The notes beneath the pieces are model-generated. The model saw only the letters and a list, made by a program, of their open reading frames with translations, was not told where the DNA came from and searched no databases. Source: Anaerococcus nagyae (GTDB lineage: Bacteria; Bacillota; Clostridia; Tissierellales; Peptoniphilaceae). From it: a DNA stretch of 64,000 nt. The position numbers and the translations under genes were made by a program. Positions 52,940-57,835 of the stretch are shown piece by piece; position 1 is the first letter of the stretch, and each line of letters opens with the position of its first letter. The stretch is from NCBI RefSeq assembly GCF_017874535.1, contig NZ_JAGGLS010000002.1, positions 124,001-188,000 of the forward strand, read 5' to 3'.

Positions 52940-55900
52940 GTGAATATATTAATTATTGGTTCAGGAGGTCGTGAGCACGCTCTGGGTAAGAAAATTGCAA
53001 GTAAAAATAGAAAAATTTATTTTGCTCCAGGAAATGGAGGTACTTCTTCAACAGGGGAAAATGTTGATATTCAAGTAGATGAAATAGAAGAATTAGTAGA
53101 TTTTGCAAAAAATAATAGTATAGACTTTACAATAGTAGGACCAGAGTTGCCTTTGTGTGAAGGCATAGTAGATGAATTTGAAAAAAATAATCTTAAGATA
53201 TTTGGTGTAAATAAAAGCGCATCAAGATTTGAATCAAGTAAGGGTTTCACAAAAGAATTTTTAAATAAATATGATATAAATACAGCTTCTTATCTAAAGA
53301 CAGATGATAAAAGTGAGGCAATTAATTTTGCAAAAGATCTTTTAGAAAAAAATAATAAAGTTGTTTTAAAAAGGGATGGTCTAGCAGCAGGTAAGGGCGT
53401 ATATATTATTGAAAATAATGAGGAACTTGTTAAATTTATAGATGATATTTTTGCCAAAGATAAAGATATAGTTATAGAAGAATATATTGACGGCTTTGAA
53501 ATGAGCCTTCTTTGTCTAACAGACTCAAAAACTATAATTCCACTACCAACTAGTAAAGACCATAAAAAAATATATGATAAAGAGTTAGGTCCAAACACAG
53601 GGGGTATGGGAACCTATGCTCCAAATATAGAAGCGGAAGCCTATAAAGAAAAAATTAGTGAAGATATATTGCCAAAAATACTAAAAGGATTTAACCAAGA
53701 AAATATAGATTATAGAGGTGTTTTGTTTATAGGATTTATGATAAATGAAACAGGTATCTATGTTTTAGAATTTAATGTAAGATTTGGAGACCCAGAGACA
53801 CAAGTTGTTTTAGAACTTATAGACAATGACCTATTAGAATTATTAATGTCAACTTCAGAAAAAAATCTTAAAGATATTGATCTTAAAATAAACGATAAAA
53901 AGGCAGTTTGCTTGGTATTAGCATCTGAGGGATATCCAAAAAGTTATGAAACTAATAAAGAAATAAGCATTGATAGTGGGATTAATTCAATTATTTATCA
54001 TGCAGGTACTAAAGAAGAGAATGGAAAATTATTAACTTCTGCCGGTAGAGTGTTAAATATAGTTTCTACGTCTTATAATTTTGATGAAGCTATTAGCCAA
54101 GTTTATCAAGATGTTGATAGAATAAATTTTGATAATAAATACTATAGAACGGATATAGGTCCATCAGTAAAAAGGGTTTATGTAAAACGCAAAGATCAAT
54201 TTGATTTTGCGTCACATAATCTTAAAACTAAGATAAAAAATACATTAGATATAGACATAGAAGATATCAAAATATATAACAGATATGATATTGAAACTAG
54301 TGATGATAATCTTAAAAAGATTTTATATACAGTTTTATCAGAAGCTCCAGTAGATGAAGTATATGCTTTTGATGATGCTATTAATTTACAAGAATCTTTT
54401 AAGAAAACTATTGTAAGTCAATACTTGCCAGGGCAATTTAATCCTAGAGAAAAAGGAGTTATTGATACATCTCTTCTAATAATAGAAGATAATGAATTAG
54501 CGGTTAAAGCCTCTACCGTTTATGAATTATCGGGTGTTAAAGATTGTGATATAGAAAAGATAGAAGATTTTTTAATAAATCCAGTAGATTCCCAACAAGT
54601 TAGCCTTATAGGAATTCCGACTACCTTAAAAGTCAAAAATAATAAAAATTTAGAAAATATTACTTTTTATAACTTTAGAGAATATAAAGATGAACAATTA
54701 AGAGAATTTTTAGAAGAAAATTCTATGGCAATGAGCCTAGATGATATCAAATTGGTAAGGGATTACTTCAAGAAAGAAAATCGTGATCCTGATGAAACTG
54801 AGATAAAAATTTTGGATACTTATTGGTCAGACCACTGTAGACATACAACATTTAATACATTCTTAGATATAGAATTTGATACAGCAACTCTTTTAGATGA
54901 GGCTATAAGGGATTCATTTGAAAAATACTTACAGATGAGAAGAGTTTTAGATATTAAAAAGCCAATAAATTTGATGAGTTTTGGTACAATTCTTTCTAAG
55001 TATATGAGAAAAAATGATAACTTTGATGATCTGGAAGTATCTAGTGAGATTAATGCCTGCTCCATTTATACAAAAGTTAGGGTTCTTAAAGATGGAAAAG
55101 AATCTCTAGAAGACTATTTACTTATGTTTAAAAATGAAACTCATAATCACCCTACAGAAATAGAACCTTTCGGAGGTGCATCAACTTGTTTAGGTGGAGC
55201 AATCAGAGATCCACTTTCTGGAAGAGCCTATGTATATCAAGCTATGAGATTATCAGGGGCAGCTAATATAAAAGAAGATTATAAAGATACTTTAAAAGGA
55301 AAACTTGCTCAATCCAAAATTACCAATGAGGCTGCTCATGGATATTCTTCTTATGGTAATCAAATAGGGCTTGCTACAGGTCTTATAGATGAGTTTTATC
55401 ATGAAGGATATAAGGCTAAGAGAATGGAGTGTGGAGCGGTTATAGCTGCTGCACCTGCAGAAAATGTAAAAAGACTCGATCCTAAAGAAGGTGATATCGT
55501 AATACTTCTTGGAGGAAAGACGGGTAGAGATGGTATAGGAGGAGCAACAGGATCATCAAAATCCCACAAAGTAACTTCTATACAAACAGAATCAGCTCAA
55601 GTTCAAAAAGGTAATGCACCAGAAGAACGTAAGATCCAAAGATTATTTAGAAATCCAGAAGCTGCTAAGCTTATAAAAAAATGTAACGACTTCGGTGCTG
55701 GAGGAGTTGCAGTTGCAATAGGAGAGCTTGCTGATGGTATTGATATTCATTTAGATAAAGTCCCATTAAAATATCAAGGGCTTAAACCATTTGAAATTGC
55801 AATTTCAGAGTCTCAAGAAAGAATGGCAGTTGTAATAGATAAAGATGATAAAGATTTATTTATGAAGTATGCCAAAGAAGAAAACTTAGAAGCTACAGAA

Positions 55901-57835
55901 GTGGCTGAGGTAACTAGTGACAATACAATGAGCATGTACTATGAGAATGAAGTCATTGCTAAGCTTTCCTATGACTTTATAAATACTAATGGTGCAGGTA
56001 GATATGAAGACGTGGATGTGGTAAGTGAAACTGTGCCAGAACTTCTTACAGTAAAAGATGATGATCCAAATAAATTCTATGAAAAAGTATCTAGCCTTGA
56101 TATAGCATCAAAAAGAAATCTAATAGAAATGTTTGATTCATCTGTTGGTAGAAATACTGTTTTAAATCCATTAGGAGGGCATAAACTACTAAACCCAGCA
56201 CAAGTAATGTCAGCAAGAATACCAGTAGAAGAAGGGGTTTCAAAAACAGCTTCACTAATGAGCTATGGTTTTGATCCAACTTTATCTAGTGGCAGTCAAT
56301 ACTTAGGTGGATATTACGCAGTAATAGAATCTATATCTAAACTAGTTGCTATAGGTTCAGACTTAGATCAAATAAGATTATCTTTCCAAGAATTCTATGA
56401 AAAGATGGATAATAGTAAAGCTTGGTCAAAGCCATTAAAATCTTTAATAGGAGCCTTTGAAGTGACAAATCATTTTAGTATGCCACCTATAGGCGGTAAG
56501 GATAGTATGAGCGGTACTTTTGAAGATATTAAAGTTCCACCTACATTAATATCTTTTGCAGTAACTACTGAAGATGTTGAAAACATAATTACTAATGACT
56601 TAAAAGGTGAAGGTAAGCTTGGTATTATAAAAGCTGATTATAAGAAAGATGGAACTATAGATCTAGATAAGTTAGAAGAAAATTATAAAAATCTTATAGG
56701 AGATATTAGAGAAGGTAATATAATTTCAGCTATTGCTCTTGATAGAAAAGGACTATTAGCAAATATATACGAACAAGCTATTGGAAATACTGGATTTACT
56801 TTAGAATATGATAACTTATATAATCCGATGTATGGTTCATTTGTCGTTGAATATAAAAATGATCGTGATTACATTGAAAGTATAGGTAATTTTAGCGAAG
56901 ACATTATAGTTAATGGGGAAAAATTAGAAGAAGATAGACTATATGAGTCATATATCCATAGCTTAGATGAAATTTTCCCAGGATATGAAGAAATTAAATA
57001 TCAAGAATTAAAAAACAATAAAGTTACTAGAAAATTGAAATCAAAGAAAATAGTAGATAAACCAAGAGCATTAATATTAGCAGCACCTGGAACTAATTGT
57101 GAATGGGACACTCAAGAAGCTTTTAAAAAAGCTGGAGCTGAAACAAATATATTGGTATTTAAAAATCAAAATGAAGAAGATATTAATGAGTCTATAGATC
57201 TTTTAGAAGACGAACTTAGAAAATCTCAAATATTTGTTATACCTGGAGGATTTTCTTTAGGAGATGAACCAGATGGATCAGCTAAATTCTTAGCAAATAT
57301 CCTTCGTAATGAGAAAATTTCTAAAGCAATTGATTATTTATTAGATGAAAATGACGGATTAATATTAGGTATATGTAATGGATTCCAAGCTCTAGTAAAA
57401 ACAGGACTATTACCATATGGGAAAGTTCTTATACCAGAAGATGAAGATCCTACACTTACGAACAATACTAGCTCACGTCATATAGCTACTTTTGTAAATA
57501 CAAAAACTTTAACAAATAATAGTCCTTGGACTCTTGGAGTTGACTTAGATCAAACTTATAGAATACCTATTTCTCATGGTGAAGGAAGATTTATTGTTAG
57601 TGAAGAAAAATTAAAAGAACTTTTAGAAAATGACCAAGTATTTTCAGTATATGAGTCATCACCAAATGGATCAAACTATAATATAGAAGGTATTCTTTCA
57701 AAAGATGGCAAAATTTTAGGAAGAATGGGACATGCTGAAAGAATAGATGATGACTTATTTAAAAATGTTTATGATGTAAAAAGAGAAAATATATTTGAAA
57801 ACGCAGTTAATTATTTTAGAAAGGAAAATATATGA
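52940..57835 (+). CDS. PurD-PurL fusion: GAR synthetase joined to integral FGAM synthetase
   Basis: 1,631 residues in one frame. Residues about 1-407 are a complete ATP-grasp PurD ([50 protein letters not shown], ending YYRTDIG). After GPSVKRV comes a full-length integral PurL of about 1,220 residues: a PurS-like N-terminus, DHCRHTTF (about 631) and [17 protein letters not shown] (about 733). Its C-terminal glutaminase has Cys1479 in GICNGFQ and His1546/Glu1548 in SHGEGRF. No in-frame start codon or ribosome site exists at the junction, so PurL is not made separately. GTG start behind AAGGAG. It performs steps 2 and 4 of the pathway. Confidence 0.92.

Follow-up and report, generated by a model that had tools for sequence, protein, structure and literature searches.

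A single gene of Anaerococcus nagyae, here termed purDL, encodes PurD (GAR synthetase) joined to a complete single-chain PurL (FGAM synthetase). The gene lies at 52940..57835 on the forward strand of the window, the 64,000-nucleotide stretch of DNA that was analysed, and all window features given below are encoded on that strand. As judged from sequence comparison, its product is very likely a bifunctional GAR synthetase and glutamine-dependent FGAM synthetase of old origin, derived from neighbouring purD and purL genes in the same frame once the stop codon separating them was lost.

The purDL reading frame begins with a GTG codon, preceded by a Shine-Dalgarno-like AGGAGAG (52928..52934), and continues for 1631 codons uninterrupted by stops. 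The PurD part (residues 1–408; 52940..54163) has relatives in the PDB such as 2yw2 and 2xcl, and the NCBIfam model TIGR00877 matches residues 2–408 with 451.3 bits against a cut-off of 288, covering profile positions 2–421 of 425. The PurL part (residues 411–1631; 54170..57832) is matched by the NCBIfam model TIGR01857 over residues 411–1626 with 1480.5 bits against a cut-off of 1057, covering the profile in its entirety (1–1239 of 1239). Only two residues separate the two models. The proposal of the first-pass annotation, that PurD and a complete PurL reside on one chain, is thus borne out by a single frame in which both models match at near full length. Within the window genome, purDL is the sole match above the TIGR00877 cut-off.

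Sequence motifs of both enzymes are present. In the PurD part, RFGDPETQ at residues 281–288 matches the RFGDPExQ signature. The PurL part contains an FGAR-AT linker domain (PF18072; residues 588–635; 54701..54844), the ETHNHPT motif of the synthetase part (55136..55156), which aligns with ESHNHPS of 3d54_A, and a GATase_5 glutaminase domain (PF13507; 57059..57817; aligned to 3d54_D and 6jt7) with GICNG at 57368 and HGEGR at 57575. The cysteine of GICNG and the His-Glu of HGEGR are presumably the catalytic residues of the PurL glutaminase. Retention was assessed over 43 fused copies, comprising the 41 genomes used for the trees described below and the named loci L015 and L016, which may repeat a species. 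ETHNHPT was found in all 43, RFGDPExQ in 42 (the G050 copy has Glu in place of Gln), CNG in 41 and HGEGR in 40. A strict GP[NT]TGGMG pattern was retained in 32 of the 43, and the five inspected of the 11 misses deviate at the proline. As estimated by dN/dS, both the PurD half and the PurL half are under purifying selection, with values of 0.059–0.143 for both halves in 10 of 10 pairs, some of which share genomes and five of which have dS above 1 in at least one half. Separately, the fused PurLs of G070 (L138) and G074 (L141) have both the Cys and the His of the glutaminase replaced, and that of G073 (L140) the His alone. Given these replacements, the fused enzymes of the three genomes may be able to use free ammonia as substrate.

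The junction comprises residues 403–418 (54146..54193), as defined by sequence comparison. It had been described as a linker of a few residues, GPSVKRV. The join is indeed very short; however, the Gly closes the PurD core (RxDIG) and PurL already begins with VKRV, so the two enzymes are joined virtually without a linker. Among unfused PurDs (n = 67), the C-terminus lies 0–15 residues past the RxD[I/V] motif. In all 43 fused copies the segment 406–418 is 13 residues long, Arg403, Asp405, Ile406, Pro408 and Arg412 are invariant, and the junction aligns as a 75-column block without gaps. An AlphaFold2 model of residues 1–1000, built from an 81-row alignment (mean pLDDT 82, pTM 0.68, poor at 732–895), shows loop 402–409 running into the first PurL strand. 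The pLDDT is 96 for residues 391–400, 93 for 401–410 and 96 for 411–420, values that describe local order and say nothing on the relative placement of the whole domains. On the predicted model, the joint is short and structured.

A hidden purL start close to the junction in the window was considered and rejected. Codons 380 to 495 contain no in-frame ATG, GTG or TTG, the nearest being a TTG at codon 496, in agreement with the earlier statement that no purL start codon exists at the junction. Elsewhere, an in-frame start codon is located two codons ahead of the PurL domain, namely ATG in L016, L124, L126, L130 and L138 and GTG in L133. Lineages with such a start at the position of the old purL start, the window excepted, could produce a separate PurL besides the fused form.

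The window genes are ordered purF-purN-purH-purDL-guaB-purE-purM-purC. Upstream of purDL lie purF (49511..50884; TIGR01134), purN (50881..51435; TIGR00639, 149.8 bits against a cut-off of 150.1) and purH (51423..52928; NCBIfam). PurN is therefore encoded by its own gene, two upstream of purDL, as the first-pass annotation had noted. Downstream, the start of guaB (57832..59283; TIGR01302) overlaps the purDL stop and is followed by purE, purM and purC (59293..61479; domain and NCBIfam models). PurM is a separate gene (59769–60788), and the PurD-PurL layout holds no PurM match. The PurC of the window (60799–61479) is short, at 226 residues, and scores 122 bits, below the TIGR00081 cut-off of 189.9. 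No Rfam element was found at gathering score around the operon (40000–64000). For purB (adenylosuccinate lyase), nothing in the window genome exceeded the TIGR00928 cut-off; three matches of 68–81 bits correspond to argH, aspartate ammonia-lyase and a fumarase-like protein, and the same model gives 368 and 393 bits for the PurB proteins of two relatives in the family. An organism lacking PurB would be unable to carry de novo purine synthesis past SAICAR; a gap in the assembly is possible. No purK match above cut-off was found in the window genome (best 30.5 bits), and PurE may therefore work without PurK.

The first-pass annotation had suggested a search for the joined architecture across genomes, and this revealed it to be widespread in the window's family. 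PurD was found above cut-off in 121 of 130 family genomes, and among the matches listed an uninterrupted fused frame with PurD, 1600 codons or longer, was present in 55 of the 130, spread over 16 of 39 genera, with PurL present in the same frames. One more fused copy, in G017, is interrupted by a contig end. A profile of the junction was then applied, built from 32 fused sequences; in the family, order and class searches, matches across the junction score far above the lowest-scoring matches listed. Across the order (249 genomes) it recovered 56 uninterrupted copies, which are the 55 and that of G017, all in the window's family, and none of the 119 order genomes outside the family gave a junction-spanning match among the matches listed, which extend to matches of one half. 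Uninterrupted copies were likewise confined to the family in a class sample (10 of 391 genomes, among the matches listed) and in a phylum sample (2 of 398 at 1e-40, a threshold that remote fusions may escape). Named carriers are Anaerococcus sp. 9403502, Mediannikoviicoccus vaginalis, Peptoniphilus rachelemmaiella, Aedoeadaptatus coli, Peptoniphilus catoniae and a Christensenellaceae metagenome-assembled genome (MAG).

The same searches recovered neighbouring genes separated by stops. In the class sample, a further 19 genomes match through the junction with at least one in-frame stop, 13 of them with exactly one (among the matches listed), and three more genomes with a single in-frame stop across the junction were found in the phylum sample. 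Among neighbouring purD-purL pairs, 21 of 34 share the same frame with one stop between them, a share biased by the way the loci were fetched. For the fused loci with context (about 5.5 to 7.5 kb fetched per side), purN is close to purDL in 20 of 28. The other eight hold no other window pur gene in the fetched stretch, although one of them (L136) has a contig end 1.9 kb upstream. In all eight of these genomes a PurN match occurs elsewhere, five above cut-off and three below it at 118–132 bits.

Phylogenetic trees of each half were computed for 41 of the 55 fused genomes; these were quick, unrooted trees without bootstrap. In the PurL tree (90 rows), the 41 fused family rows form one clade together with 13 unfused rows (SH-aLRT 100). 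In the PurD tree (81 rows), the same 41 rows cluster with G051 and G096 in a single clade (SH-aLRT 100). The fusion of the Christensenellaceae MAG (L041:1-4821) has the PurD-PurL order of the family and exceeds the cut-offs of both models, and is known from a single contig from which the PurD start is missing. Because it branches apart from the family in both trees and has six additional residues at the joint, it probably represents an independent event. Five species of the window's own genus (G005, G001, G006, G010 and G009; L158, L159, L100, L103 and L106) possess a PurL of another clade that is only 43–44% identical to that of the window. The surroundings of two of the five were inspected and show a different operon, purE-L-F-M-N-H-D, a case of operon replacement.

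The unfused PurLs that fall within the fused clade look like losses. G004, G027 and G029 show the order purH-purL-guaB, corresponding to the window order minus the purD half, with another purD and a purN in a second cluster. G115 and G112 have purF-purL and a second cluster, the order in G105 is purC-purF-purL-purB, and that in a Tissierellia MAG (L018) is purC-purL-purB; fused counterparts exist in G040 (purC-purF-purM-purN-purH-purDL-purB) and in G053, which is identical minus purM. In all seven of these genomes (7 of 7 examined), PurD and PurN fall outside the groups formed by the fused genomes. When fused or unfused state is mapped onto the PurL tree, a minimum of five changes is obtained. 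These fall on the independently fused Christensenellaceae MAG, the stem of the family clade, G051, a single subgroup within the window's genus and, as one change, all other unfused rows. Gain was distinguished from loss by the junction and gene order rather than by the rooting of the trees. To judge by the trees and the gene order, lineages holding a second pur cluster seem to have lost the fusion on at least two occasions, apart from G051. G051, the sister of the intact G050, carries stops in the fusion region that can be read equally as error or decay, and it was scored as unfused in the trees although its stops may be errors.

A further state is represented by G096 (L180, 5802-7556, reverse strand), in which a PurD of the fused clade extends 135 residues beyond DIGP with weak likeness to the N-domain of PurL (27% identity to a fused copy by BLAST, E = 2e-9 in a small set). 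The TIGR01857 model gave no match to this extension at 1e-6. The junction profile extends to position 181 of 215 in G096, and to position 179 in G097, which has a similar long frame. By eye, the G096 gene has neighbours similar to those around the intact purDL in G059, and a full PurL is encoded elsewhere in G096. The gene is thus best read as PurD with an in-frame remnant of PurL, mainly on the basis of the junction profile and the similar neighbours, and the remnant may function as a tail.

The first-pass annotation had named an indel at the junction as a possible cause of the joined frame. Such an indel is excluded, as 55 genomes share this open frame. Joining of two genes through a sequencing or assembly error more generally has a negligible probability: the stop-broken region of G051 demonstrates that frames vary among assemblies, but the open frame occurs in 55 of 130 family genomes (among the matches listed) and the junction length is identical in 43 of 43 copies. 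It is also very improbable that the product is a polyprotein cleaved afterwards into PurD and PurL; the two halves have proved separable in evolution, yet the junction forms an ordered loop that is conserved, unlike a variable linker. A neutral origin, in which a chance stop loss was fixed and the fusion kept through inertia, is a possible though less favoured reading, and one compatible with a bifunctional enzyme. Among the genomes searched the fusion is limited to one family and one MAG, whereas the neighbouring one-stop state is more widespread, and the fusion seems to have been lost again at least twice, both of which suit neutrality. Against it stand the unchanged joint length in 43 copies, the spread over 16 genera and the retention of the fusion where purDL lies apart from other pur genes.

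The earlier annotation further proposed a PurN-bridged complex passing on GAR and FGAR. In its fuller form, this proposal treats the fused enzyme as the covalently linked core of a metabolon of PurD, PurN and PurL, with PurN docking between the halves and both intermediates handed on. The proximity of purN in 20 of 28 fused loci, the replacement of PurD together with PurN in all seven split genomes examined, the short, ordered joint of constant length and the dense two-hybrid network reported among Escherichia coli purine enzymes in a review (PMC10912719) are consistent with this arrangement. However, purN is not nearby in eight of 28 loci, the location of purD and purN in one cluster accounts for their having been replaced together, and fused-clade PurL persists beside PurD and PurN of another clade in the split lineages (7 of 7), which argues that the halves are separable and PurN exchangeable. 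The bridged complex is therefore unsupported, and the metabolon is improbable. A related view, also unlikely, takes PurDL for a rigid unit of two enzymes, in which the invariant joint positions the active sites so that PurN, and perhaps PurF, can dock transiently. It would then be a covalently linked bacterial equivalent of the core of a purinosome, channelling phosphoribosylamine, GAR and FGAR; if true, the rigid docking module could be directly compared with naturally split relatives. As stop-codon loss between neighbours accounts for the fusion, channelling is not needed as an explanation.

Under the preferred reading, that of a bifunctional enzyme produced by stop loss, removal of the stop codon between neighbouring purD and purL genes in the same frame would have yielded a single chain with the two enzymes at 1:1. 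The short, ordered joint would hold the C-domain of PurD directly against the N-domain of PurL, with each active site likely working independently. Since step 4 does not take up the product of step 2, no direct transfer from one half to the other is expected. PurN must act in between, and would take up GAR and give back FGAR by diffusion. The benefit would then lie in fixed stoichiometry, co-folding or local enrichment.

The eukaryotic enzymes GART (PurD-PurM-PurN) and ADE5,7 (PurD-PurM) likewise fuse PurD with de novo purine enzymes, although their partners are PurM and PurN where purDL carries a full PurL. With respect to TIGR01857 single-chain PurLs, the PurL half of purDL is a full member to which an N-terminal PurD is added. 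The Salmonella-type single-chain PurL (1T3T; TIGR01735) has the same order, synthetase then glutaminase, but belongs to another clade of PurL, purDL scoring 176 bits against the TIGR01735 cut-off of 1123. The review cited above (PMC10912719) describes GART, also names a yeast PurDM, reports kinetic evidence for channelling between PurF and PurD, and presents PurL as a scaffold as an older proposal. Archaeal PurN-PurH1 and PurE-PurE, listed in a survey of archaea (PMC3261824), are prokaryotic purine-enzyme fusions like purDL but with other partners. Word searches of open-licence PMC papers yielded no report of a PurD-PurL fusion.

It is unusual for a fusion to combine steps of the purine pathway that do not follow one another, here 2 and 4, and purDL represents a bacterial gene fusion within one family that was apparently reversed later through replacement of one half. 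With its locked stoichiometry, purDL provides a natural pair for asking whether bacterial purine enzymes cooperate, and a comparison set is at hand in close relatives that carry the fusion, PurL alone, or PurD with a PurL remnant.
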